A DNA stretch of 37,780 nt from contig CAJCBL010000363.1 in NCBI GenBank assembly GCA_903960515.1, forward strand, positions 1 to 37,780, read 5' to 3'. This DNA comes from an uncultured Verrucomicrobiota bacterium (GTDB lineage: Bacteria > Verrucomicrobiota > Verrucomicrobiia > Opitutales > Opitutaceae). Below, piece by piece: positions 3,746-37,780 of the stretch (position 1 is the first letter of the stretch; each line of letters begins with the position of its first letter). Under the pieces are notes generated by a model, which saw nothing but the letters and a program-made list of their open reading frames with translations, had not been told where the DNA came from and made no database searches. A program made the translations under genes and the position numbers.

Positions 3746-3945
3746 GGGTGGGAAAAATATCCGGGCGAAAGGGCATCACGTAAGCCCTTGCCACACCGTT
3801 GCATAGCGGGGCACCGGGCTGCGACTGCAGCCCCTCCCCAACTGCCACTGGAAAAAATACCCGTTCCGACTAGCCTAGGCGCCCCATCGCAGAATCGCCC
3901 CCGCCCGGTGAGCAAACTCGGCCGGCCCAGAGAGAAAGTTACGCC

Positions 3946-5655
3946 ATGCCAAAGATGGACCACGCTACGCTAACCGCCAAAGAACTACACAGCCGCGCCG
4001 AAGCCTGCTGGCTGCAACGCCAGGTGCCAGACGCCCCCACTCGCTCCAACGCCGACAACCTCCAACTCATCCATGACCTGGAGGTCCACCAAATCGAACT
4101 GGAGTTGCAGGGTGCCGAACTGGAGCGCACCCGGGCCGAGATGGAAGTGGCTCTGGCAAAGATCACCGACCTCTTTGATTTCGCCCCGGTGGGCTACATG
4201 ACCCTCGATCCCAACGCCGGTATCAGCGAAGCCAACTTGGCCGCTGCCAGCCTGCTGGGTTTTGAGCGGCCCCAGTTGGCCAATCGCTCTTTCCGCTCGT
4301 TCGTGGCCGCCAAGGATCTCCCGGTCTTCGCGGGGTTCCTCCAGCGGGTATTCACGGGCAATGGCCGGGAGCATTGCGAGGTGGCGCTGGTGGTGGACGG
4401 AAGAGCAGAATGCGAGGTGGAGATGGAGGCCGTAGCCTCCGAATCGGGACGCAACTGCAAGCTCGCCCTTAGCGACGTCACCGAGCGCAAACGCGCCGCC
4501 GAGGACCGGCTGATACTCAGCAAACTGGAATCCACCGGCATTCTGGCCGGCGGCATCGCCCACGATTTCAACAACCTGCTCACCTCCCTCGTGCTCAACC
4601 TCGATCTGGCCCAGACTCTGGGCCCGCCCGACGGGGAGATCGCTCGCTGCCTTGAGGAGGTGAAGAAGACCGCCTTCATGGCGCGCAGCCTCACCCAGCA
4701 ACTGCTGACGTTTTCAAAGGGCGGCGCCCCCATCCTGAAAATCACACCACTCAAAGAGGTGATCCGGGAATCGGTGCGGCCGGCCTTAAGCGGATCGTCG
4801 GTGGGCTGCGATTTCGCCCTGGCCGAGGATCTGTGGCCGGTGAAGGCCGACCCCGGGCAGATCAGCCAGGTTTTGCGTAACCTGGTGATGAATGCCCGAG
4901 AGGCCCTGCCGGAGGGCGGAGTAGTCGGTATCCGCGCCGAAAACGTGGTGCGCCGCTCCCCCGGTATGCCCGCCCTGCCCCCCGGCGGCTACGTGCGGGT
5001 AAGCGTTATCGACCACGGCGTGGGTATCCCCCCCGAGAATCTCCCGCTGGTCTTCGACCCCTATTTCTCGACCAAGCAGCGGGGCACCTGCAAGGGCATG
5101 GGGCTCGGGCTCACGATCTGCCACACCATCATCAAAAAGCACGGGGGCGCGATGGCCGTGAGGTCCACCCCCGGCCAAGGGAGCACCTTCGAGATCTACC
5201 TGCCCGCCGCCACGGCAGCAGTCGCAGTGGATCCAGCCGCCCCGCCTACGGCCAGCCTCACTCGTCGCAGAATTCTGGTGATGGACGACGAGGAGAAGCT
5301 GCTGACGGTATTCGCAAAGACCCTCCGCAAGCTGGGCCACGAGGTGGAGATGGTGGAGAACGGGCAATCGGCCATAGCCGCCTTCACGGCTGCCGGAGCG
5401 GCGCAGCGGCCCTTCGACCTGGTGTTCCTGGACTTGACGATCCGCAACGGCCTAGGCGGCCGGGAGGTCATCCAGGCCCTGCGCCAGATCAATCCCGCCG
5501 TAAAGGCCATCGTGATGAGCGGCTATGCCGACGATCCCGCAGTGGAGAACCACCGCCGCTACGGTTTCGACGCCGCCATGGTGAAGCCCTTCGACCTAGG
5601 GCGTATTCAGGAGGTGCTCAAGGCGATGACGGGGCCGGTGTCAGGGCCGGCCTAG
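3946..5655 (+). CDS. Hybrid histidine kinase: PAS, HisKA, HATPase, receiver
   Basis: A soluble two-component hybrid kinase of 569 residues with no signal peptide or membrane segment. A helical N-terminus (about 40-72) leads into a PAS domain (about 73-180, FDFAPVGYMTLDPN onward). The phosphoacceptor is H206 in GGIAHDFNNLL. The ATPase domain has the N box (NLVMNAREALPEGG), G1 (DHGVGIPPE) and G2 (GMGLGLTICHTI). A receiver domain follows a short linker, with DDE near its start, phospho-acceptor D496 in LVFLDLT and the conserved lysine in VKPFD. An AGAGAGAAAG purine run lies just upstream as a likely ribosome site. The next gene is a larger paralogue, and both share unusual receiver details (LDLTI-x-GLGG and HRRYGF). 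No cognate DNA-binding regulator is adjacent, so output may pass through an unlinked phosphotransfer protein. Confidence 0.93.
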   Translation: MPKMDHATLTAKELHSRAEACWLQRQVPDAPTRSNADNLQLIHDLEVHQIELELQGAELERTRAEMEVALAKITDLFDFAPVGYMTLDPNAGISEANLAAASLLGFERPQLANRSFRSFVAAKDLPVFAGFLQRVFTGNGREHCEVALVVDGRAECEVEMEAVASESGRNCKLALSDVTERKRAAEDRLILSKLESTGILAGGIAHDFNNLLTSLVLNLDLAQTLGPPDGEIARCLEEVKKTAFMARSLTQQLLTFSKGGAPILKITPLKEVIRESVRPALSGSSVGCDFALAEDLWPVKADPGQISQVLRNLVMNAREALPEGGVVGIRAENVVRRSPGMPALPPGGYVRVSVIDHGVGIPPENLPLVFDPYFSTKQRGTCKGMGLGLTICHTIIKKHGGAMAVRSTPGQGSTFEIYLPAATAAVAVDPAAPPTASLTRRRILVMDDEEKLLTVFAKTLRKLGHEVEMVENGQSAIAAFTAAGAAQRPFDLVFLDLTIRNGLGGREVIQALRQINPAVKAIVMSGYADDPAVENHRRYGFDAAMVKPFDLGRIQEVLKAMTGPVSGPA

Positions 5656-15748: not shown

Positions 15749-16210
15749 CTACCCCTTCAGCTCCACGACCACCTGGATTTCCACGGTGCAGTTGCGCGGC
15801 AGGCCGGCCACCGCCACGGCGGCTCGGGCATGCTTGCCGGCCTCCCCAAAAAGCTTCACGAAGAGATCGGAGGCGCCGTTGACCACAGCCGGGCTATCCG
15901 GAAAACCGGACACGGCGTTCACATAGCCGCCTACATAAACAAAACGCGCCACCGCATCCAGACTACCGGCAGCCGCCTTGATGTTGGCCAGCGTGTTGAG
16001 CGCGCAGACTTTCGCCGCCTCATACCCGCTGGCCACCGTCTGCTCGCCGCCCACCTGGCCTACGTGGGTGAGTTGGCCGTCGATCGCGCAGATCGTGCCG
16101 GCCAGGTACAAAAGATTGCCTGTGCGCACGGAGGGCAGGTAGTTGCCGGCCGCTACAGGCGCGGCGGGCAGCTTGAGGCCGAGGTCGGAGAGAGTGGTTT
16201 CGATGCTCAT
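15749..16210 (-). CDS. RidA/YjgF-family protein
   Basis: 153 residues from the ATG at 16210 (an in-frame extension to 16390 exists but lacks family similarity). RidA proteins are small trimeric enzymes that deaminate reactive enamine/imine intermediates made by PLP enzymes. Matching parts are GNYLPSVRTGNLLYLAGTI near the N-terminus, ALNTLANIKAAAGSLD in the central helix, and GLPRNCTVEIQVVVELKG at the end, where the arginine before the final strand corresponds to the ligand-binding arginine. The length fits the longer (about 150-residue) subgroup. It stands alone, facing the small ORF. Confidence 0.92.
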   Translation of the reverse strand: MSIETTLSDLGLKLPAAPVAAGNYLPSVRTGNLLYLAGTICAIDGQLTHVGQVGGEQTVASGYEAAKVCALNTLANIKAAAGSLDAVARFVYVGGYVNAVSGFPDSPAVVNGASDLFVKLFGEAGKHARAAVAVAGLPRNCTVEIQVVVELKG

Positions 16211-27497: not shown

Positions 27498-28326
27498 ATA
27501 TAGTCCGATTGCAACGCGGCCCTCGCGCCCGCACCGCTTTGCCTGCGGTAAGATCTTCGCTTGTCGACGTACCGTGTCGGTTACCGTTGGTGCGTCGCCC
27601 TTGCATTCTTCGCAGCGAAAAACGCTGGCACGTCGCAACGCCTCTGGTTCCCGTAGTGTCGGCCCTCGTGGCCGTACCGCTCCGATTTCGAGCAACCCAC
27701 CGTCGCTACCCGCTACTCGCTACTTTCGGCCACGGAGCGCCGGAGGAGCGGTTGAAGTTGAGGGTTAAACTTAGAGTGCAGAAGGCGACCCCGGAGCGCC
27801 ACTTACCAAGTGGCATGCCTACGATAGGGCAACCATTCAGTTCTCCGTTCCCTCCGTGACCTCTGAGGTAAATAACTAGTGTGTAGCGAGCATAGGCGGA
27901 GTCTCGCACTACCCGAACTCTGCGATTGTTGCGGTTAACAATGCCCGCCTTCAGCCCAAAATAGGGCTCTTCGCGATATGTTGTGGGTGGATTCCGTTGA
28001 AGAGACCGCAAAAGCATCTACCAGAGCAGCAACGGATGAAACGACCCCCTTTGGCACTAGGTTGGCGCAACGAGTACCCGGGGTGCTCAACGGCTTCACC
28101 GGCGAGCTACAAGCTCAAAGCTCCTACGCGCTTTCGCTAGGACAGATGGCTCGCCCCACACCGCCGAAACTGAGGTGCGGCCCCGAGCCGTGCTCTGGTA
28201 TTCTATCTTTGACCACTCGCCCCTCGGCTCTCGTCGGCATGCAAGCGGCCCGGGCCGGAAGGCCACGAGGCGAAACATTGCCTTCGCCGCATCGCCAATC
28301 CCCGAATTCACCAAGTCGTTGGGCGC
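27498..28326. other. Long spacer without a convincing gene
   Basis: 829 bp after ybeY. Base composition is lower in GC than the flanks and short repetitive pieces occur (CTACCCGCTACTCGCTAC near 27705-27722). The longest open frames are shadow-like, overlap each other on both strands and have no recognisable domains. It may contain decayed genes or an undetected RNA. Confidence 0.5.
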
Positions 28327-28353
28327 AAAAAAGGCCGGTCCAGGACCGGCCTT
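28327..28353 (-). terminator. Rho-independent terminator for the lipoprotein gene
   Basis: AAGGCCGGTCC pairs with GGACCGGCCTT (28331-28353). On the minus strand, downstream of the lipoprotein stop, the stem runs straight into a six-T tract followed by GCGC. This is the cleanest classical terminator in the window. Confidence 0.9.
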
Positions 28354-28376
28354 GCAACAAACCCTCGGCCCGCCGC

Positions 28377-28940
28377 TCAAGGTGCCGCAGGTGCCGGAAC
28401 GGCCTCAGGACCAGGTGCCGGGGCGGAGGCCGAGGGCGGAGCAGCCTCAAGCGAGGCCGCCGGTACGGGGGCCGCCACTGGGGTTGGCGCAGGGGCGGCT
28501 TCCGGGCCGGCCTCGGCGGCAGTATCCACCAACGACTCCACATCCACCTTGCCCGCCTTCAAATCGTAGACGAACCGCTTGCCGCGGGGCGGATTGGGCA
28601 GCTTGTCGAGGTAGCGGCTGGCCACCAGTTCGTCCAAGGAGCGGGGAAGGCGCCCCTCAATCACCTCGAACTGCTTCACCGACTGGTTGAGGGTCATCAG
28701 ACCGGTGGTCTGAGCCGCCGTCTTCTCGGCGTTCGAGAGATTCTTCCCGTATTCGGCAAGCGGACCGGTGGCGGTGGATTTCCCGTCCCCAGGGGGCGTC
28801 TTGGCTGGCGCGGGGGTGCCGGGTTTCTGCACCGCCGGGCTGCCGGCCGGGTGCCTCTTTTCGGGGTAGCCCTGCTCAGGGCAACCAGTCAAAAGCAACG
28901 CGGCCGCCACCGTCCCCAGAATCCAGCAACTCGTTTTCAT
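28377..28940 (-). CDS. Putative lipoprotein of unknown function
   Basis: 187 residues with a lipoprotein signal peptide whose lipobox is LLTGC (Cys20), so it is probably anchored to the outer or inner membrane. A Pro/Lys-rich linker (about 25-55) leads to a helical segment (LMTLNQSVKQFEVIEGRLPRS) and SLDELVASRYLDKLPNPPRG-KRFVYD, which resembles the small globular end of type II secretion pseudopilins. The last 45 residues are a low-complexity Ala/Pro tail. No secretion operon is nearby, so only the localisation is firm. It ends at a strong terminator. Confidence 0.82.
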   Translation of the reverse strand: MKTSCWILGTVAAALLLTGCPEQGYPEKRHPAGSPAVQKPGTPAPAKTPPGDGKSTATGPLAEYGKNLSNAEKTAAQTTGLMTLNQSVKQFEVIEGRLPRSLDELVASRYLDKLPNPPRGKRFVYDLKAGKVDVESLVDTAAEAGPEAAPAPTPVAAPVPAASLEAAPPSASAPAPGPEAVPAPAAP

Positions 28941-29022
28941 GTCACGTCATGGTGCAAAGCCGCCGGCGCGGCGCAAGCCCGCGAAAACGCTGCCCGGGAT
29001 TGTCATGCATTTCTAACCAGCA

Positions 29023-29577
29023 ATGATGCCTCCGATGCCCTCATCCCCCACCTCCCGGCGACTGCAACGAGTCCTGGGCCTCGCCCGGCTCGATGCGCTC
29101 TCGATGATTGTCGTGGCCGCACCGGCGGCCCTCATTGCGCTCGGCGCCCGGGATACTATCGGCTTTGCGGTGGGCAGCGGTGTCGCGCTCTGCGGCGCGG
29201 CCGAATGGCATGGCCGGGCTCGCCTCTTGCGGAGACAGATTTCGGGCATCGCCTGGCTGTGCTCCGCGCAACTGCTCTGCCTGCTGTTGATTCTCTACTA
29301 CGCGTGGAACCTCGGGCAACTCGCCGGGGCCGATCACATCCTCGCGCTGCTGCCCTCCTTCACCCGCGAACAGTTGGCGGATTCTTTCCCCGATCCGGAG
29401 TCGCTCACGGGGCTGCTTCTCGGTATCCAGCGCCTGATGGCCGGTGCGCTCGCCCTCGCCTCCCTGATCTACCAAGGGGCAATGGCCCTCTACTACCTGC
29501 GCTCTGCTCCGGCGGCGCGCGCGGTTTTCGCCGAACCCCCGGTTCTGGCCTCCGTGACCGAGCCCCACGGTGGCTAA
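29023..29577 (+). CDS. Hypothetical integral membrane protein
   Basis: 184 residues with about four hydrophobic segments (MIVVAAPAALIALGA, TIGFAVGSGVALCGA, LLCLLLILYYAWNLG, LMAGALALASLIYQGAMALYY) separated by short basic or acidic loops. No family recognised. The start could be any of three clustered in-frame ATGs (29023, 29026, 29035). It is divergent from the lipoprotein gene with an 82-bp gap, and lies 209 bp upstream of rph on the same strand. Confidence 0.75.
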   Translation: MMPPMPSSPTSRRLQRVLGLARLDALSMIVVAAPAALIALGARDTIGFAVGSGVALCGAAEWHGRARLLRRQISGIAWLCSAQLLCLLLILYYAWNLGQLAGADHILALLPSFTREQLADSFPDPESLTGLLLGIQRLMAGALALASLIYQGAMALYYLRSAPAARAVFAEPPVLASVTEPHGG

Positions 29578-29786
29578 GCCGCAGGTGAACTGAAAAAGCA
29601 CGCCCTCCGCTGAATTTCCCGGGGCTCAGGGAGGCATCGCACACCAGCGGCAAAGATGGCAGCGGCCCAGGTGTACGCGGCTACGCCGGAAACGCGGCTC
29701 GGGCTTGTGCCGTTACGTGGGAGCAACCGCACTTCGCGGCCATCTTCGCTTGCCCACGGAAGAGCCGCAGCGTTGAGTGCCGCCCC

Positions 29787-30566
29787 ATGCCCGAATTCGC
29801 ACGCCCGGACGGCCGCCGCCACGATCAACTGCGCCCGATCACCTTCCAACCCGATATCGCTCCAAACGCCCACGGCTCTGTCCTGGTGTCGTTCGGCAAC
29901 ACCCGGGTGATTTGCGCCGCCATGATCGAGCCCAAGGTCCCCGCATGGATGCGCCAGCAGGGCGTCCCCGGCGGCTGGCTCTCCGCCGAATATTCGATGT
30001 TGCCCTACAGCACGCTGGACCGGAAACCCCGCGACATCGCCAAGGGCAAGCTCGACGGCCGCACTGTCGAAATCCAGCGCCTCATCGGCCGCTCGCTGCG
30101 CGCGGTCATCGACCTCAAAAAACTTCCCGACAAAACCCTCTGGGTCGACTGCGACGTGCTCCAGGCCGACGGCGGCACCCGCACCGCCTCGATCACTGGA
30201 GCCTATCTCGCTGCTCGCCTGGCCGTGGAGAAGATGGTCACCGAAAAGAAGATCGCCGAAAACCCCTTCACCGATTCGGTGGCGGCGGTGAGCGTGGGCC
30301 TCTTCGAGAACCGTGAGATCCTCGACCTGGCATATCTTGAAGACAAGGACGCCGAGGTGGACTTCAACATCGTCATGACCGGCCGTGGGAACTTCGTGGA
30401 GGTGCAGGGCACCGGCGAGGAGGCCACATTCACCCAGGAGCAACTCTCCAGCCTGCTCGAGCTCGCCAAGCGCGGGATGAAGGATGTTGCCGCCAAACAG
30501 ACCGAGTTTCTCGTGAAACGCCTCCTCTCCAACGGCCTCGCCGGGCTCACCATCGGCACCCGCTGA
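29787..30566 (+). CDS. rph: Ribonuclease PH
   Basis: 259 residues. RNase PH is a hexameric phosphorolytic 3'-5' exoribonuclease that trims the 3' end of tRNA precursors. The N-terminus (ARPDGRRHDQLRPITFQPD) is the family start. Phosphate- and RNA-binding landmarks are visible: GNTRVICAAMIE, RGVPGGWLSAEYSMLP-like GGWLSAEYSM, RTVEIQRLIGRSLRAVIDL, DVLQADGGTRTASITGAY and GTGEEATFTQEQL. The length matches the family. Lone gene with no Shine-Dalgarno evident. Confidence 0.96.
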   Translation: MPEFARPDGRRHDQLRPITFQPDIAPNAHGSVLVSFGNTRVICAAMIEPKVPAWMRQQGVPGGWLSAEYSMLPYSTLDRKPRDIAKGKLDGRTVEIQRLIGRSLRAVIDLKKLPDKTLWVDCDVLQADGGTRTASITGAYLAARLAVEKMVTEKKIAENPFTDSVAAVSVGLFENREILDLAYLEDKDAEVDFNIVMTGRGNFVEVQGTGEEATFTQEQLSSLLELAKRGMKDVAAKQTEFLVKRLLSNGLAGLTIGTR

Positions 30567-30868
30567 GCAGTGCCCGGACGATTGCCCACGCTGGCGGCTC
30601 TGCATCCTTCTCCTCCGGCCGGGTGTAGTGCCGCCTGCAGAAAGGCGGAAGGTTGAAGCCGGAAGGCTGAGCCGCTCACGTCTCCCAGCTACGACCACAA
30701 GGTCCGCCACTACAGTCGGACTGTAATGTTACGGCCGAGCCAACAGATCGACCTCGGAGGGCTGGCACGCGATCGCGTACGAAGATCGCGTGCGGGAGGT
30801 GTCCCCGTCGGAGCCCGAACCGACGGCGAATCGAGAGAGCAATCACGCCCCAAGACCGGGCGTGCGTA
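30567..30868. other. Structured intergenic region with several hairpins
   Basis: 302 bp between the converging rph and CII-like genes. It contains a CAGCCTTC-type repeat on the minus strand (30637-30671) and, at 30712-30866, a series of inverted repeats: ACAGT/ACTGT, CACGCGATC/GATCGCGTG (30767-30775 with 30784-30792), CCGTCGG/CCGACGG, and CACGCCC/GGGCGTG (30844-30850 with 30858-30864). The last one sits 5 bp past the CII-like stop codon and may terminate that gene. No open frame looks real. Confidence 0.55.
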
Positions 30869-31366
30869 TCAGCCCTTGGGCTCCGACTTGGCACCGGACT
30901 TGCCTATCGCACCCGCAGCGGACACCGGGGGCAGCTTGCCCTCCTCGGCGGCCCGTACGAAACCCTCGGTCACAGACTTGAGCTGTTCCCAGCGAGCCCG
31001 GATACGCTCGGCCTCATCCGGGGTGATCTTGGAGTCAGCCACAGAAGTGGAGATCACGCCTAGCAGATCGGCGAACTCCTGCACAATGTTGTTGGTCGCC
31101 GGAATGAGTTCGTAGGGATGCGACGTGGGCTCCGGATTGCGGATAAAGAAACCGCCCGCCCGCTCGCACACCCACTGGGCCAGACTGACGTCTCCGGTCA
31201 GCTCGATGATGGAGTCGATGCGATCCAAGGGGTTGGCCGCCCCGCTGCCCTCCGCCGGCGGCTCGGCCCATTTGTACACGAGCGAAAGCGACAGGCCCAA
31301 CTCGCCGGCGATCTGCTTCGCGCTGACGCGTTTCAGAAGCTGTTTGAATACTTCGTGCGAGTGCAT
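30869..31366 (-). CDS. Phage-CII-like regulatory protein
   Basis: 165 residues. The N-terminus (VFKQLLKRVSAKQIAGELGLSL-SLVYKWAEPP) is a helix-turn-helix of the type in phage regulatory CII/CP76 proteins. The middle (TGDVSLAQWVCERAGGFFI) matches the conserved second part, and a helical C-terminus (about 110-150) could mediate oligomerisation. It probably binds DNA as a regulator. No other phage genes are adjacent, so it may be a domesticated regulator or a small prophage remnant. The assignment rests on motif pattern only. Confidence 0.7.
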   Translation of the reverse strand: MHSHEVFKQLLKRVSAKQIAGELGLSLSLVYKWAEPPAEGSGAANPLDRIDSIIELTGDVSLAQWVCERAGGFFIRNPEPTSHPYELIPATNNIVQEFADLLGVISTSVADSKITPDEAERIRARWEQLKSVTEGFVRAAEEGKLPPVSAAGAIGKSGAKSEPKG

Positions 31367-32153
31367 CGCCGGCAGAATACAATGCCCACCGTATTTGGCA
31401 AGAACCGCGTCCCCTCCGCCCGGGGCCGAGGCGAAAGTGAAATGCTTGGGGCTACCGATCGGTATCCGTGAACATAAAACGGAGCCCCGCTACGCCCGCC
31501 ATCAGGTTGGGGGGGATACCAACGGGCCCTTTGGCCCGAGCCCGACCGCTTGCCCCCACGGGCCGGCAGGGCAAGCGCTTGGGCTGGTACATGCCTGCCC
31601 CGCCGCCAACCGCCGAACAGCGCTCCCCGGTGTGGGCGAAATTCGCTCCCCGTGGCGCGCGCTCGCCGCAGGGCACCGCCGCGGCCGCGGGAGGCGCGGC
31701 CTTCGCACCTCCGCATCACTCTTGCGGCGACAAGCCCTGCTACGGCTTGCCAAGCCAGCCCAGGGATGGCGCCAGCCCCGGCGCGCGGCGCGTCTTCGCT
31801 TCCCCCAAACAGCTATTCCGCCGCCCTCGCTGCCCGCCGGAGCAACTCAGTTTCCGCCGCCCCCCCCCGGAAGCGCTTCTCTGGCAGCGCAGCGGAACCG
31901 CTTCAATACAGCTCGCCAGCGATCCTGCGCGAGTAGGCCCACTCCGCATTCCCGGCTCCGCGCTGGACTGCGCCCTCTGTGATCGAGCAGTATTCCGCCG
32001 GCAGTCTCCGCTCTTCCGCCTTCCGTCCCGCTCGCTACCGCTAGAACGGCTTCGCGAGGCGCGGCCCCTGACCACATCTGAGGTGCCCGCCCATGCAGCC
32101 GCGCCGAATATTTGTGCTGATTAGCGCCGCGCAACCGTTTCACTCGCCAAGCG
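31367..32153. other. Spacer between CII-like gene and ffh with no convincing gene
   Basis: 787 bp. It must hold the promoters of the CII-like gene (minus) and ffh (plus). Overlapping open frames run through it on both strands, including a 218-codon one at 31468-32124, but they are Pro/Arg/Ala-rich, lack domains and have no ribosome sites. No structured RNA was recognised. Confidence 0.55.
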
Positions 32154-33509
32154 ATGTTCGAATCTCTCACCGAAAAACTGGGTACCGCGCTGCGCAACCT
32201 CCGCGGCGTGGGCAAACTCTCCGAGGAAAACATGGCCGAGGCGCTCAAGGAAGTGCGCACCGCCCTGCTCTCGGCCGACGTGCATTTCAAGGTCGCCCGC
32301 GAATTCGTCGAGCGCGTACAGACGCAGTGCGTGGGCCAGGATGTGCTCAAGACCGTGAGCCCCGGCCAGTTGGTGGTGAAGATCATCAACGACGAGCTCG
32401 TGAAGCTCCTGGGCGAAGGTTCTACCGCCCTCTCCGGCCAGCGCCCGCTCAAGATCATGCTGGTGGGCCTCCACGGCTCGGGCAAAACCACCACCACCGC
32501 CAAACTTGGCCGCTTGCTCGCCAAACAGGGCTACCGCCCGGCGGTCGTCGCCTGCGACGTCTACCGCCCCGCCGCCATCGACCAGCTCGAGATGTTGGCC
32601 AAGACCAACTCGCTGGGCTTCTTCAGCGACCGCGTATCCAAGGACGTGCCCGCCCTCGGTGCCGCCGGCCTGTCCGCGGCCCTCGCGGCCAACCACGACG
32701 CCATCCTTTTCGATACCGCCGGCCGCCTCCAGATCGACCACGACCTGGTCGAGGAGGTCAAGAAACTCCACGCCCGTATCCAGCCCGACGAGGTGCTGCT
32801 GGTGGCCGACGGCGCTCTCGGCCAGGAGGCGGTGAACGTGGCCCGCACCTTCCACGAGGCGCTCTCGCTCACCGGCCTGGTGCTGACCAAGCTCGATGGC
32901 GACGCCCGCGGCGGCGCCGCCCTCTCGATGAAGAGCATCACCGGCGTGCCGATCAAGTTCGTGGGTACCGGCGAGAAGAGCGAGGACTTCGAGATCTTCC
33001 ACCCCGACCGCATGGCCTCGCGCATTCTCGGTATGGGCGACGTGGTGTCGCTCGTCGAGAAGGCCCAGGAGGTTATGGACCACAAGCAGGCCGAGCAGAT
33101 GGCCGAGAAGCTGCGCAAGGCCGACTTCACCTTCGAGGACTTCCTGGCGCAGATGCAGCAGGTCAAGAAGCTCGGCTCGATGGACAAGGTGCTCTCCATG
33201 CTCCCCGGCATGAGCGGAGTGAAACTCGACGACGGCGCCGAGAAGCAGATGGCGCGCACCGAGGCGATCATACTTTCCATGACATTGCAGGAGCGCCGCA
33301 ACCCCACCGTGCTCAACGGCAGCCGCCGCCTGCGCATCGCCAACGGCTCCGGCACCAAGGTGCTGGAGGTCAACCAGCTGGTGAAGCAGTTCCAACAGAT
33401 GCAGAAAATGATGAAGATGATGCGCGGCGCCAAAGGGCAGAAGCTGATGCGCCAGATGGAAGCCTCGCAGGGCGCGGGCGGCCCCGGCGCTCTCCCCGGC
33501 CGGCGGTAA
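32154..33509 (+). CDS. ffh: Signal recognition particle protein Ffh (SRP54)
   Basis: 451 residues. Ffh binds 4.5S RNA and signal sequences on ribosomes and delivers them to FtsY at the membrane. The N domain ([15 protein letters not shown]) precedes the G domain with P-loop GLHGSGKT (105-112), [21 protein letters not shown], and [14 protein letters not shown]. The methionine-rich M domain (about 320-435) is present: [12 protein letters not shown] and [12 protein letters not shown]. Full length. No Shine-Dalgarno (CGCCAAGCG before ATG). FtsY and the 4.5S RNA gene are not visible nearby. Confidence 0.97.
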
Positions 33510-33992
33510 CCGGGCTACCGATGCACAGCGGGCCGCCCGTTACCGGTCCGCTTTCAAGTTGGGGCCCCTTGCGTGCAAGCACGCACCGGCGACGCCGCCC
33601 GCGCTCGGCCGCGCCATCCATCCCCGGTAACCCACCGGAAAGCGCGCAACGCTCCAGCGCCGGCCATCGCCCCCAGCACCTCTTGCACCCGGACCCGATT
33701 CCCGGCGACCGCGCAGGCGGGGTGGAGGCCGCAGCGAGTGAATTTCGCTCCCGCCCCACCACGGTATTCACCGGTTGGGGCGGGCTTGAGTGGGCTAGCC
33801 ACAGAGGCAGGCCGCCCCGGGTTTGCCACCAACCGGCCGAAGGCGCCGGTTCCTCCCCCGCCCTCCACCTACAGCACAGCGCGAATACCAAGCCATCGCC
33901 AGAACCCGTGCTTCGCGGTTACCTCCGGAGACCGGCGGCCGCGCGAAAAGGTTGCATGCCCGCAGGCCATCGGGGTTGAGTGACCGCCCGCC
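33510..33992. other. Spacer between ffh and the SET gene
   Basis: 483 bp with no convincing gene. A perfect short hairpin (TGCGTGC-AA-GCACGCA, 33570-33585) lies 60 bp after ffh, possibly at the transcript end, but has no T-run. Open frames in the remainder are Pro/Ala-rich and unlike real proteins. Confidence 0.55.
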
Positions 33993-34535
33993 ATGAGGCC
34001 CCCTCCCTCCAAATCCAGCAAGATCAGGTCCGCCAACTACGACCTGCCCGTTCCCCCATCCTTGCTGATCCGGCGCGGCAACTCCGGTATCCATGGGTCC
34101 GGGGTATATGCGCGCATTGCGATCCCCTCCACCCATGTGATCATCGAATACCGGGGCGAACGAATCACGAAGGCCGAGAGTGATCGCCGGGAAGAAGCGC
34201 GCCTCCAGCGCATCCGCCGGGGTCACGATTCCTGCACCTACATTTTCCATCTCAACGCGCGCCACGATCTCGATGCCCGGCGCGGCGGCAACATCAGCCG
34301 GTTCATCAACCATTCCTGCCAGCCCAACTGCCACTCCGAACTCAAGCGCGGACGCATCTGGATCGTAGCCATCAAGGACATCGAGCCCGGAGAGGAGATC
34401 ACGTTTGACTACGGCTTTGCGTTTCGGGACCGGGCCGACAACCCCTGCCGCTGCGGCAGCGCGCAATGTGTAGGCTACATCGTGGCCGAGAACCAGCGCT
34501 GGAGACTGCGTCGCTTGAAGCGCGCCAGCACCTGA
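33993..34535 (+). CDS. Bacterial SET-domain protein methyltransferase
   Basis: 180 residues forming one SET domain plus post-SET. Landmarks: GIHGSGVYARIAI (first strand pair, cofactor loop), ISRFINHSCQPNC (NHS at 106-108), GEEITFDYGF with catalytic Tyr140, and a post-SET zinc site from C109 and the C-x-C-x4-C cluster (152, 154, 159). SET enzymes transfer methyl groups to protein lysines. They are widespread on eukaryotic histones and also occur in chlamydiae and other bacteria. The target here is unknown; a basic-tailed HU-like protein elsewhere in the window is one conceivable substrate, but that is only inference. It is the last ordinary chromosomal gene before the cassette array. Confidence 0.9.
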   Translation: MRPPPSKSSKIRSANYDLPVPPSLLIRRGNSGIHGSGVYARIAIPSTHVIIEYRGERITKAESDRREEARLQRIRRGHDSCTYIFHLNARHDLDARRGGNISRFINHSCQPNCHSELKRGRIWIVAIKDIEPGEEITFDYGFAFRDRADNPCRCGSAQCVGYIVAENQRWRLRRLKRAST

Positions 34536-34966
34536 TCGCCACCAGGCCGGGAGACAACACCCTATAGTGCAGATTAGACGATTGGTATTTGGGAAAACAT
34601 GCAGACAAAAAGTCCCCACCCCCTCCCCCAAACCCGCTGCTGAAATAGCGGCATCCAAGTGAAGCCGCTTGCACTGTACGGCAAAGTATACCGCACGATA
34701 AAGCCCGACATAACCCCAACGCTTTATAGAGCACGTCCGGTGTCGTTGGAGTCGGCGAGCAGCGCGAAAGGACAGCAACGGACGGCCGCTTCGAGGCGGT
34801 TGAAAAGATCTATGGCTGGTGTGCCCACCACTTTTTCGCTCGCATCTGCGGTGAAGAGCAGCAGCATCGGCCGCATGCCCGCCAGCCACGGAAGGAGACT
34901 TTTTCAGATTACATCCCTGCCCTGCCCCACACCCGCCGTGCCCTCGACAGTTTCAAAAAACCCGGC
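34536..34966. other. Lower-GC boundary region before the first attC; possible gene remnant
   Basis: 431 bp with a composition shift. One plus-strand frame stays open from 34738 into the first attC (ending about 35058) and has a protein-like mix (FEAVEKIYGWCAHHFFARIC, then FSDYIPALPHTRRALDSF), yet has no ATG, GTG or TTG start in frame. It may be the 3' part of a cassette gene whose 5' end was lost. The alternative ATG frame at 34659-35042 is less protein-like. No attI site or integrase was recognised. Confidence 0.4.
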
Positions 34967-35058
34967 GCCGAACCAGGCGCTACAGGGAACGCCGGGAAGA
35001 GCATCATTTCCTTCGGCCGAGTCCGCTCCCCGACGTCTCTGAGCTTATGTCGTTCGCC
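34967..35058 (+). other. attC site A
   Basis: R'' GCCGAAC (34967-34973), L'' CAGGGAACGCCGGG (34983-34996), L' CCCCGACGTCTCTG (35028-35041) and R' GTTCGCC (35052-35058). L'' and L' pair except for two mismatches and one extra base in one arm, as expected of attC hairpins; R''/R' have one mismatch. Total 92 bp. Confidence 0.85.
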
Positions 35059-35063
35059 AAAAG

Positions 35064-35519
35064 ATGCGCGTATTCTTCCTAGTTTTTGCCTTGGCTAGCT
35101 CCGTCGTTGCGGGGTCTCCTAAGGTTGCTGATTGGGAGGCGGTCGGTAAGTACTTCGCTCTAGGTTATGAGTCTCACCGGAGTCTGGAGCTACGCGAAGA
35201 CAATACATTCCTGATGGTTCTATGTGCCCGAGGGAGCGATCTGTCCCAAATAAAGATAGAAGAGCGAGGCACTTGGAAGATCGAAGGAGATGTGATCACG
35301 CTCACACCCGAAGACGGAAAGCCGTACGGCCCAGATATCTGGTACGCTCGGCTCCTGCTGCGAAAGCGCGATGCCAAACGCGAGTTGCGTGTAGGTGTTA
35401 CCGGGGCATGGGGTTATGACAAAATTGGCCTCGAAGAAGGAGATGGCGAACAAGTCACTACAGGGAACGCCGGGGAAGCATCGCTTCCTGCGGCGGAGTC
35501 GGAGCCCCGGCGCCCCTGA
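35064..35519 (+). CDS. Cassette-borne secreted protein, unknown function
   Basis: 151 residues, start codon 5 bp after the R' box of attC A as in typical cassettes. The signal peptide (MRVFFLVFALASSVVAG) is followed by a beta-rich domain with 'LELREDNTFLMVLC' and 'GTWKIEGDVITLTPEDG', a pattern seen in small lipocalin-like or META-like exported proteins; I cannot name it. The last 25 residues (EQVTTGNAGEASLPAAESEPRRP) are encoded by attC B, so the functional protein probably ends at about 125. No Shine-Dalgarno. Lower GC than the chromosomal genes. Confidence 0.75.
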   Translation: MRVFFLVFALASSVVAGSPKVADWEAVGKYFALGYESHRSLELREDNTFLMVLCARGSDLSQIKIEERGTWKIEGDVITLTPEDGKPYGPDIWYARLLLRKRDAKRELRVGVTGAWGYDKIGLEEGDGEQVTTGNAGEASLPAAESEPRRP

Positions 35520-35534
35520 CCTGCGGCGTTGGCC
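35445..35534 (+). other. attC site B
   Basis: R'' GGCGAAC (35445-35451), L'' CAGGGAACGCCGGGG (35461-35475), L' CCCCGGCGCCCCTG (35505-35518) and R' GTTGGCC (35528-35534). The L boxes pair with one unpaired base. Total 90 bp. Confidence 0.85.
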
Positions 35535-35566
35535 TAAGAAAAGTGCGTTTAGCCCGTCCCCAGCAT

Positions 35567-36190
35567 ATGAAAGCCCCGATCACACTGCTCGCTTTCCTGT
35601 TACCTGCGCTTGCTAGCGCCGCAGTAGTCGAGGGAGCCCACTTCCGCATGTCAGCTGATGCACTTGTTATCGACCGCATTGCCGTTCTTGGCAGCGATCA
35701 CCTCAACAAGCGGTCTGATGCCTTGCGGACCTCATCCTTAGATTACTGGATTAGGCTTGGGACATGCCGGGTGTTTATCCGCGAGGGCAGCATCAGTCTC
35801 CTCGATCCAGAATCATTGGATGCCACGGTCGATTTTTTCGGAATGGTAGAAGAGAAGGGTGGCTATAAGATCTTCACGATGGTGTCCCACGACAAGACCG
35901 AGGCGGCGGCCTCGATCATGATCAGGCCAGTCCGTGGGACAGAGCACTCAAGCGAAGATCCTGGGGTATATTTTTCAGTCCGTGCCACCGAAGTCCGACT
36001 TTTGAGAGAGGGCTTCGAGAAGCTCGTATTGAAGGCTGAGCTCAAGATCGGAAATTCAGATTATAAGAAGATAGAAGAGTGCGATTTCGCTGCCGCACTC
36101 CTGCCGCTTGCAGCGTTTCTAAAAGAAAGGGCCAACCAGTCACCAGAGGCAACGGCGATAAAGAGTCCGCCTTCCAAGCAGAGTCCGTGA
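35567..36190 (+). CDS. Cassette-borne exported protein, unknown function
   Basis: 207 residues from the ATG at 35567, chosen over the GTG at 35543 because it opens a signal peptide (MKAPITLLAFLLPALASA). The mature part is beta-rich, with VVEGAHFRMSADALVIDRI early and YFSVRATEVRLLREGFEKLV later, and no recognised family. The gene runs through most of attC site E (from 36130), so its last 20 residues (NQSPEATAIKSPPSKQSP) are attC-encoded. Confidence 0.75.
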   Translation: MKAPITLLAFLLPALASAAVVEGAHFRMSADALVIDRIAVLGSDHLNKRSDALRTSSLDYWIRLGTCRVFIREGSISLLDPESLDATVDFFGMVEEKGGYKIFTMVSHDKTEAAASIMIRPVRGTEHSSEDPGVYFSVRATEVRLLREGFEKLVLKAELKIGNSDYKKIEECDFAAALLPLAAFLKERANQSPEATAIKSPPSKQSP

Positions 36191-36220
36191 CTCGCCGTGC
36201 CTCACCTATAGAGTCTCGGC
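36130..36220 (+). other. attC site E, with altered core box
   Basis: R'' GGCCAAC (36130-36136), L'' CAGAGGCAACGGCG (36144-36157), L' CGCCGTGCCTC (36193-36203) and a core reading GTCTCGGC (36213-36220). The L boxes pair well with one extra base. The core would be GTTCGGC if one inserted C were removed, so this R' is damaged or divergent. Total 91 bp. Confidence 0.7.
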
Positions 36221-36228
36221 AAAAGACA

Positions 36229-36666
36229 ATGAAGCGTACCCTCCTTTGGATGACTCTCATCGCACTCGTCGGTTGCTCGACGATGCCCACGGGGGACGAC
36301 TTTACGCTTTGGCCGCAAAAAGAAGAAGTCGCTGGAAGATATCGATTCCATCCATTCGGCTGGGATGACCTTGTGCTTCGCCCGGATGGTAGATTCATCG
36401 AGGAGCACTCGACCGACACTCTGGAGTCTTGGACAGTCAGTGGCGTTTGGAGATCGGACCGCAGTGGACTCATTCATCTTGAATACGAAGGTTCAGAACG
36501 AAGTGAAAGCTTCCGTTTCATAAGGTTGAATGCCGCGTTCGGACTGGTTCTTGACTCTCGGCTTGAGCAGTGGCTCAGACTTCCTGATCGCAAAGCCGAG
36601 AACCTTCCATTCGGAAAGAAAACAGAAGCGGCCGAACAAGTCACTACAGAGAACGCCGGGAGGTGA
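36229..36666 (+). CDS. Cassette-borne lipoprotein, unknown function
   Basis: 145 residues. A lipoprotein signal (MKRTLLWMTLIALVGC, lipobox ALVGC) predicts lipidation at Cys16. A single beta-rich domain follows: GRYRFHPFGWDDLVLRPDGRF and SWTVSGVWRSDRSGLIHLEY are strands of a small barrel-like fold similar in layout to the 35064 product, hinting they are relatives. The start lies 8 bp after attC E and the frame ends inside attC C, so the tail (EQVTTENAGR) is attC-encoded. The longer in-frame start at 36079 would read through attC E and is rejected. Confidence 0.78.
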   Translation: MKRTLLWMTLIALVGCSTMPTGDDFTLWPQKEEVAGRYRFHPFGWDDLVLRPDGRFIEEHSTDTLESWTVSGVWRSDRSGLIHLEYEGSERSESFRFIRLNAAFGLVLDSRLEQWLRLPDRKAENLPFGKKTEAAEQVTTENAGR

Positions 36667-36723
36667 ATCCTCTACTTCGGCCGAGTCCGATCCCCGGCGT
36701 CTCTGAACTATAAATCGTTCGGC
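36631..36723 (+). other. attC site C (best conserved)
   Basis: R'' GCCGAAC (36631-36637) pairs perfectly with R' GTTCGGC (36717-36723). L'' CAGAGAACGCCGGG (36647-36660) pairs with L' CCCCGGCGTCTCTG (36692-36705) fully except for one extra base in the L'' arm, matching the extrahelical base of attC sites. Between each L and R box is an unpaired AAGTCACTA/AACTATAAATC spacer. Total 93 bp. Confidence 0.9.
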
Positions 36724-36741
36724 GAAAACAGAATTCTCCCC

Positions 36742-37044
36742 ATGAATAAATCCAATGAAATATCCCCGGCAATAGTACGACTGACCCTATACCTTTCTAT
36801 AGGCGGAGCGTTGGGGCTAACATACGATAATCTATCCGTCGGATTCTCTGCCGGGATTATCTTCGGCCTATTTACCCCGGCGAAGTATTTCGACGCCTAT
36901 TTGCTGGGTCCCGACCGCTCGTTTTTAGTTAGCCGTGTTGCAATAGCTGCCGGGGCTATCGGTTTCGTGAACTGCATATCGATATTCACGGTGACCTGCG
37001 TGACCGGATTCACAGCCGGGTTTTTACATGGCCTGTTTAGCTAA
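36742..37044 (+). CDS. Cassette-borne small membrane protein
   Basis: 100 residues with about three hydrophobic segments (IVRLTLYLSIGGALGLTY, VGFSAGIIFGLF, VAIAAGAIGFVNCISIF and FTAGFLHGLF at the end). The ATG lies 18 bp after attC C. No family recognised and no ribosome site evident. It is among the lower-GC genes of the window. Confidence 0.72.
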   Translation: MNKSNEISPAIVRLTLYLSIGGALGLTYDNLSVGFSAGIIFGLFTPAKYFDAYLLGPDRSFLVSRVAIAAGAIGFVNCISIFTVTCVTGFTAGFLHGLFS

Positions 37045-37086
37045 GGTCGCCCCTCTAATTTCCGTAAAACATTTCGGGTAATGTAT

Positions 37087-37177
37087 GCCGAACCAGACCC
37101 TAGAGGGAACGCCGGGAAAGCGTCCCTTCCTCCGGAATTGTCTGGTGCCCGGCGTCCATCATCCGTATTCGTTCGGC
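37087..37177 (+). other. attC site D
   Basis: R'' GCCGAAC (37087-37093) pairs perfectly with R' GTTCGGC (37171-37177). L'' GAGGGAACGCCGGG (37103-37116) and L' CCCGGCGTCC (37148-37157) pair over most of their length. Total 91 bp. Confidence 0.88.
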
Positions 37178-37184
37178 ATAAGCC

Positions 37185-37661
37185 ATGCAAGACGACACGA
37201 CCAGAATCCCGCCAGTCTTATCTCCGCCCGTTATCGCCGTTCGCAGAAGGCGCCGACGGAATATGTTGGGGCGCGGGATTGCCGCCGGCATTCTTTCCGC
37301 AGCCGGGGGTGCAGTGTTGTGGGCGGCGCTCGTGGGTGTTTTCCAGTTACGGCTTGGTTTCCTTGCAATCGGAGTCGGTTCTTTAGTTGGCATGTCCGTC
37401 CGAAAGTACGGCCGAGGACGAGATGAGCGCTTTGGCGTTGCTGCGATGTTTTGCGCGGCTTTCGGTTGTCTGTTGGGCGATATTTGGGGTGGGGCCATAT
37501 CGCTTTCCATCGCCTACAATATCTCGGTGTTTCGTGTTCTAAGCCACCTTAATCTGGAGCTCGTTAGAGAAACACTATTCACCAATTGGACATTTATGGA
37601 CCTTATCTTTTACATGATCGCGATGTGTTTCGCGTATAAGCTTTCAGTGATCGACGAATAG
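37185..37661 (+). CDS. Cassette-borne membrane protein
   Basis: 158 residues; ATG 7 bp after attC D. A cytoplasmic basic stretch (VRRRRRRNMLGRG) precedes hydrophobic segments (IAAGILSAAGGAVLWAALVG, LGFLAIGVGSLVGMSV, VAAMFCAAFGCLLGDIWG, and DLIFYMIAMCFAY near the end). About four membrane helices, none recognised. The KYGRG-x-x-ER-x-G pattern between helices 2 and 3 resembles that of other small cassette membrane proteins. The gene ends 119 bp before the right window edge. Confidence 0.78.
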   Translation: MQDDTTRIPPVLSPPVIAVRRRRRRNMLGRGIAAGILSAAGGAVLWAALVGVFQLRLGFLAIGVGSLVGMSVRKYGRGRDERFGVAAMFCAAFGCLLGDIWGGAISLSIAYNISVFRVLSHLNLELVRETLFTNWTFMDLIFYMIAMCFAYKLSVIDE

Positions 37662-37672
37662 CCAGATAGAGT

Positions 37673-37733
37673 ACCAAACCACACACTGCAGCGCAACGCC
37701 AACGGTGTCCGGGCGCGTGGGCTGCTATAGATT
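37673..37733 (+). other. Possible degenerate or truncated sixth attC
   Basis: ACCAAAC (37673-37679) resembles an R'' box and CAGCGCAACGCC (37689-37700) an L'' box; a GGCGCG...GGGCTGC stretch near 37712-37727 could be a poor L'. No R' box follows. It may be a broken site ending the array. Confidence 0.3.
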
Positions 37734-37780
37734 TTCAATGAGAGCGCCGTGGGGTAGTGATAGACGCAGCGCCACTAGTC

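Follow-up and report, generated by a model that had tools for sequence, protein, structure and literature searches.

Evidence for an integron gene-cassette array lacking an adjacent integrase in an uncultured Opitutaceae bacterium

Arrays of integron gene cassettes without a neighbouring integrase are designated CALINs, a term which PMC8618304 credits to Cury et al. and which requires a minimum of two attC sites separated by less than 4 kb (PMC9668308). According to these papers CALINs are widespread among bacteria and are the usual form in archaeal metagenome-assembled genomes (MAGs) that are fragmented (PMC8618304; PMC9668308); archaeal MAG integrons are mostly of this type, as expected from fragmentation, with cassettes usable in trans (PMC9668308), and off-target insertion by an integron integrase (IntI) encoded elsewhere, loss of intI and rearrangement have been proposed as origins (PMC8618304). 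Here we describe a stretch of DNA of an uncultured member of the Opitutaceae (Verrucomicrobiota), the 37,780-bp contig CAJCBL010000363.1, which is analysed over its whole length as the window and corresponds to contig C363 of a 5.52-Mb draft genome (379 contigs, 96.8% complete). Positions 34676-37780 very probably represent the left-hand portion of a CALIN-type array of integron gene cassettes.

The array carries five attC sites within 2.2 kb, its cassettes are co-oriented and intI is not found beside it, so that nothing essential differs from CALINs as presented in the sources cited. The 49 model matches in the draft genome are many, and up to 107 attCs are told for one MAG (PMC9668308). Integrase-less cassette arrays are already well known and the window array is a further, fairly ordinary case; what it adds is a well-supported reservoir of cassettes from a family in which integrons are frequent. 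Integrons have been reported in Verrucomicrobiota among other phyla (PMC8618304), with background on integron distribution and bottom-strand recombination in PMC9024848 and PMC11023631. A literature search on integrons in Verrucomicrobia, Verrucomicrobiota and Opitutaceae yielded no paper devoted to such arrays by its title or the start of its abstract, which is not proof that none exists, and Verrucomicrobia is not among the eleven taxon-specific attC models where PMC8352920 names them.

Two described systems are closest. In Xanthomonas (PMC12444791), CALINs occupy seven loci, attG sites are described, and intI, where kept, resides at one conserved locus, while CALIN positions are fairly conserved across species. 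The present genome is alike in having arrays at several chromosomal loci without neighbouring intI, but unlike Xanthomonas, the stretches compared revealed no array locus common to the three members of the genus. Among flank matches only a chemotaxis-receptor gene stood out, and it belongs to a multi-copy family (C84 versus contig C47 of the congener G010, 48.7% over 228 amino acids). Chromosomal integrons of the same family (genomes G163, G004, G041 and G105) share with the window the layout GCCNAAC-CAG...CTACAG and the extra T and have similar core variants, and the pairing scar treated below is common to the window's genome and G163, G004 and G041. In these integrons the array is divergent from intI, which lies near the first cassette, where the window has a SET-domain gene.

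attC sites of the window

The sequence-only reading of the window had proposed an integron-type cassette array of five 90-93 bp repeats starting at 34967, 35445, 36130, 36631 and 37087, with R''/L''/L'/R' boxes in attC order and inner arms pairing but for one extra base; all five lie at these coordinates, and box order and arm pairing are borne out. Two covariance models were used. R1 was built from the bottom strands of 19 sites of the window's own genome, whereas R2 was built from 23 sites in intI-bearing arrays of G004, G163 and G041, which represent two other genera, and includes no site from the window's genome; its training sites were originally found by R1, while the intI genes beside them were detected separately. 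The five sites, all on the plus strand, are given with their R'' and R' boxes.

34967-35058, plus strand, attC site 1 (92 bp): GCCGAAC / GTTCGCC; R1 100.9 bits (in R1 training set); R2 E 1.9e-8
35445-35534, plus strand, attC site 2 (90 bp): GGCGAAC / GTTGGCC; R1 88.2 bits (in R1 training set); R2 E 1.8e-7
36130-36220, plus strand, attC site 3 (91 bp): GGCCAAC / TCTCGGC; R1 55.8 bits (not in R1); R2 E 2.2e-4 at 36131-36220
36631-36723, plus strand, attC site 4 (93 bp): GCCGAAC / GTTCGGC; R1 99.8 bits (in R1 training set); R2 E 3.8e-11
37087-37177, plus strand, attC site 5 (91 bp): GCCGAAC / GTTCGGC; R1 85.9 bits (in R1 training set); R2 E 8.8e-6

Since R2, independent of the window's genome, finds all five sites (E 3.8e-11 to 2.2e-4, 134 kb searched), they are not explained by chance, and a covariance-model search, the kind of check that had been proposed, came out in favour of attC. 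In the 19-site alignment of R1, 90.3% of cells were paired as opposed to 38-51% in slid-partner controls, and covariation amounted to 0.166 versus 0.074 after shuffling, with 0/500 shuffles reaching the observed value. The helix formed by alignment positions 19-31 and 66-79, the L'' and L' arms, had 93.1% of cells paired and one unpaired column; in the window sites the extra base of L'' reads A on the top strand and accordingly T on the bottom strand.

The consensus of attC boxes is of the type RYYYAAC ... GTTRRRY. AAC is present at R'' in all five window sites and GTT at R' in four, the exception being the degenerate site 3. The earlier suggestion of a non-standard core G-TTCGGC holds insofar as this core departs from strict GTTRRRY; however, GTTCGGC is only one variant among several R' boxes in the window, and the fourth core base is often C, unlike strict RRR, also in intI-linked arrays of the family. 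Because similar variants sit beside intI in relatives, the GTTCGGC core is the local norm and ordinary in this family.

Box pairing and folding

IntI cuts between the G and TT of R'. With a cut at this point the six bases past it belong to the next cassette, so that the R'' of a site should match the R' of the previous site. To this pairing scar, the strongest evidence for integron cassettes, 48 sites of the genome were entered, which gave 35 adjacent pairs on one stretch, of which 23 cassettes were kept. At the four variable bases a perfect match was found in 16/23 cases within the cassette as opposed to 6/23 within the linear site, and the mean box match was 3.48 of 4 within the cassette versus 2.74 in the linear site and 2.83 in shuffles, with 0/20,000 shuffles as high. 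In the window, R' of site 1 (GTTCGCC) pairs perfectly with R'' of site 2 (GGCGAAC), as does R' of site 4 (GTTCGGC) with R'' of site 5 (GCCGAAC), both counted in the test; the equally perfect pairing of R' of site 2 (GTTGGCC) with R'' of site 3 (GGCCAAC) was left uncounted on account of the degenerate R' of site 3. The scar is likewise present in IntI-bearing relatives (G163 21/22, G004 17/18, G041 12/12, G112 5/7), in the congener G010 (5/5; 335 of 20,000 shuffles) and in 15/17 cassettes of G003, in which intI was not found. Box pairing within the cassette thus provides a simple sequence test that recognises recombined cassettes without an integrase.

These patterns are best explained by an IntI that acted in trans to insert and exchange the cassettes. 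The enzyme would recognise the folded bottom strand of attC and cut between G and TT of R'; each cassette would then begin with TTNNNN and close with the R'' that matches it, and a perfect attC would exist only when the cassette is circular. The integrase itself, present or past, would be encoded elsewhere, having been lost, left unassembled or supplied by another cell, and the sites may still be active.

Several observations weigh against this interpretation. The bottom-strand extra-helical base is a T, where the textbook attC has a G. For a degenerate box, 12/35 adjacent pairs of the window's genome and 4/21 of G003 were excluded from the scar test, and in the congener G056 the scar was not significant (2/5; 2929 of 20,000 shuffles). 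Folding of the bottom strands, which the sequence-only reading had named as a check, gave a divided answer: among the isolated linear sites (z of -0.24, -0.43, -1.21, -4.88 and -1.06 for sites 1-5) only 36631 folds much better than shuffles, the other four being weak, and the top strand has the lower z for 35445 (-1.25), 36130 (-1.87) and 37087 (-2.37). Across the genome the bottom strand was more stable than the top strand in 13/23 sites.

The weak linear folding is partly explained by the better folding of circular-cassette sites. When R' was replaced in silico by the cassette's own left end, as in the circular site, the bottom strand gained stability over its linear form in 16/18 differing cases, with a mean fold energy of -18.8 kcal/mol compared to -16.9 for linear sites and -17.1 when R' boxes were drawn at random from the genome. 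All seven outer pairs formed in 15/23 circular-site folds versus 5/23 linear ones.

Integrase search and competing explanations

As integron integrase we accepted proteins above the cut-off of 265 bits of TIGR02249. The window's genome contains none; the best piece reached 77 bits, and another piece of this protein gave 46 bits. PF00589 has seven matches in the genome. An integron integrase in the assembly was rejected on the TIGR02249 scores, the sequences being XerC/D-like by eye, and so was the intact 321-amino-acid tyrosine recombinase on C191 (L107, 2173-3138), which has XerD as its best NCBIfam match and 29 bits with TIGR02249. The latter gene is close to a weak attC match, and several copies of the short repeat gcaggctcaacgcccgcgaacagctac were seen by eye at ~3850-4390, near the contig end. 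Genomes of the genus (0/3) are equally devoid of intI over the cut-off. An IS91-linked recombinase of G056 (C194, L111, 304-3643) has TIGR02249 as its best NCBIfam match, yet the whole protein scores 170.6 bits, below 265, and the matched pieces omit profile positions 182-214. At this G056:C194 locus an IS91-type transposase and the recombinase, which resembles IntI for most of its length, adjoin a SET-domain gene. At the other such locus of G056, L110 on contig C176 (1241-3258), attC sites of an array enclose an IS91-type transposase and a tyrosine recombinase.

The claim that the array is without an integrase is hence correct for the assembled genome, which has none over the cut-off; for the organism it is unproven, because the assembly consists of 379 contigs and 10/12 site-bearing contigs have a site near a contig end. 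In the family sample of 200 genomes, intI exceeded the cut-off in 68 and had E <= 1e-40 in 80, and R1 matches were present in 88, the window's own included; by hand tally, intI at E <= 1e-40 accompanied 51/88 genomes with sites and 29/112 without. G003, a single contig of completeness 100, has 24 R1 matches, 14 near 3.33 Mb, nine near 3.91 Mb and one alone, with no TIGR02249 match at E <= 1e-40, and with the IntI of G004 as query it gave weak pieces, 62.7 bits at best. Since this one-contig genome has two arrays and the scar with no intI found, true cassettes seem to occur without an integrase in the family, and such a state is not necessarily produced by incomplete assembly. G003 would make it possible to study the persistence of integrase-less arrays and the way in which they reach more than one locus.

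A complete integron whose intI-attI head is on a contig missing from the draft, with the window as its fragment or satellite array, is nevertheless a serious possibility, if in our estimate the less probable one. It draws on the fragmentation of the assembly, in which a site lies <=1.1 kb from the end of 10/12 site contigs, and on the frequency of intI over the cut-off in the family. Satellite sites do occur: in the one-contig G020, intI is located at 3.09 and 6.10 Mb and further sites at 1.42-1.44 Mb. On the other hand, the left edge of the window array is visible and at ~34676 joins the SET-domain gene and ffh, where a complete integron would have intI and attI adjoining the first cassette (no search was aimed at attI, and the right flank lies beyond the contig), all three genus genomes are without intI over the cut-off, and G003 keeps its two arrays with none found. 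A bolder scenario, which we consider improbable, is a lineage that has lost its own integrase while keeping many arrays scattered beside housekeeping genes, seeded at attG-like genomic sites and fed only by the integrases of other cells, with the repeated gene-less cassette common to several arrays.

A dispersed repeat family unrelated to integrons, similar to repetitive extragenic palindromes (REP) or miniature inverted-repeat transposable elements (MITE), that flanks small genes by chance could produce many copies on many contigs as well as a repeated unit poor in open reading frames (ORFs), and linear sites indeed often do not pair fully from end to end. Yet the copies are co-oriented per array with mostly one gene per interval, and similar sites adjoin intI in relatives; a generic repeat family was rejected since box pairing tracks the cassette and not the repeat copy, which leaves this explanation hardly credible. 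Movement of the arrays by transposons instead of IntI, with cassettes as passengers, we regard as very unlikely, if slightly less so: an IS110-family transposase gene adjoins an attC-bearing cassette on C216 and in G056 attC sites enclose the IS91-type element with its tyrosine recombinase, whereas no transposase family was matched by the cassette ORFs of the window (no systematic search for transposon ends was made at the array edges). An integron-type cassette array, strongly supported by the independent model R2, the scar and the intI-linked sites of relatives, is the reading retained.

Cassette content and array surroundings

The array starts at ~34676, earlier than site 1, its first unit being an ORF-poor cassette of which the genome has further copies; most units of the array consist of one gene and one attC site. 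As proposed from the sequence, the intervals between sites are co-oriented ORFs of lower GC content, 0.49-0.56 versus 0.66 for 28000-34535.

33993-34535, plus strand, SET-domain gene of the left flank, outside the array: PF00856 E 3.8e-26; ffh adjoining, rph further left
34676-34973, plus strand, first cassette, ORF-poor: ends in R'' of attC site 1; left edge GTACGGC read as a degenerate R'
35064-35519, plus strand, cassette 1 ORF, 151 amino acids: signal-peptide-like start (by eye); extends into attC site 2
35567-36190, plus strand, cassette 2 ORF, 207 amino acids: no family above cut-off
36229-36666, plus strand, cassette 3 ORF, 145 amino acids: lipoprotein-like start (by eye); no family above cut-off
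36742-37044, plus strand, cassette 4 ORF, 100 amino acids: hydrophobic (by eye); no family above cut-off
37185-37661, plus strand, cassette 5 ORF, 158 amino acids: hydrophobic (by eye); no family above cut-off

None of the five ORFs matched a Pfam or NCBIfam family above cut-off; cassette 1 shows similarity to NlpE/lipocalin proteins at Pfam E 0.005-0.008, below the cut-offs. A distant relative of cassette 1 was found in one of the 199 other family genomes, G105 (E 4.4e-5; 33% identity in pairwise comparison), where it is the first gene next to an intI of divergent orientation (376 bits for TIGR02249) and overlaps an attC with its end. The array DNA had no match in plasmid and phage collections, a pattern scan of IMG/VR gave 0 matches, and Rfam returned nothing above threshold and one sub-threshold match over 30000-37780. 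At the contig end, 37673-37780 looks by eye like the start of another attC (AACCACACACTGCAGCGCAACGCC), for which R1 gives only 6.6 bits at 37673-37739; the contig stops without a clear attC after cassette 5, and this sequence is either truncated, decayed or misassembled.

The ORF-poor cassette of ~290 bp (34676-34966 in the window) recurs in several arrays of the genome, with copies at C270:3099-3389 (88%) and C84:28869-29133 (89%), both of which begin at a GTTCGGC box, and partial copies on C114, C270:1-87 and C130:1-144. The longer C270 copy sits inside an array and not at its head, and there is partial likeness to the ORF-poor cassette at L107:1976-2060. Neither a codon-position bias (substitutions by codon position 39/33/31) nor a fold signal (z 0.83 and -1.49, with double changes preserved in no pair) was detected in this cassette, and sigma-70 promoters in 34400-37780 gave no match versus 1.6 expected.

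A search for further sites across the genome, as had been advised, yielded 49 R1 matches on 12 contigs at E <= 1 and 45 at E <= 2.1e-5, 19 of the 49 being training sites that match by construction. Several of the matches adjoin housekeeping genes. Genes that share contigs with array ends, named after their Pfam domains, are leuS (C114), metG and lytB/ispH (C270), scpA (C189, ~7 kb off), a lipid A acyltransferase gene (C350), aconitase and LysR genes (C288), a histidine kinase gene (C318) and, on C363, rph, ffh and SET. The right ends of six or more arrays therefore abut different regions of the chromosome, with C82 and C84 not counted on this side. The SET-domain gene, which encodes a small bacterial protein, occupies the position expected for intI; homologues were found in 29/57 genomes searched (the window's own included), and ten other SET loci, nine of relatives and one own-genome paralogue, had neither ffh nor attC within the fetched stretches.

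On C189 a YefM/YoeB-type toxin-antitoxin pair (L036, G000:C189, 16232-16743) stands just before an attC match at 16018-16108 and is probably a cassette. The IS110-family transposase gene adjoining an attC-bearing cassette on C216 belongs to locus L108 (G000:C216, 3-1521). Beyond the family, a contig of a Flavobacteriales MAG (QIJL01000027.1, L102, 1795-5309) has four consecutive R1 matches, the final one located where an FRG-domain gene ends, which reflects either cassette sharing across phyla or mis-binning.

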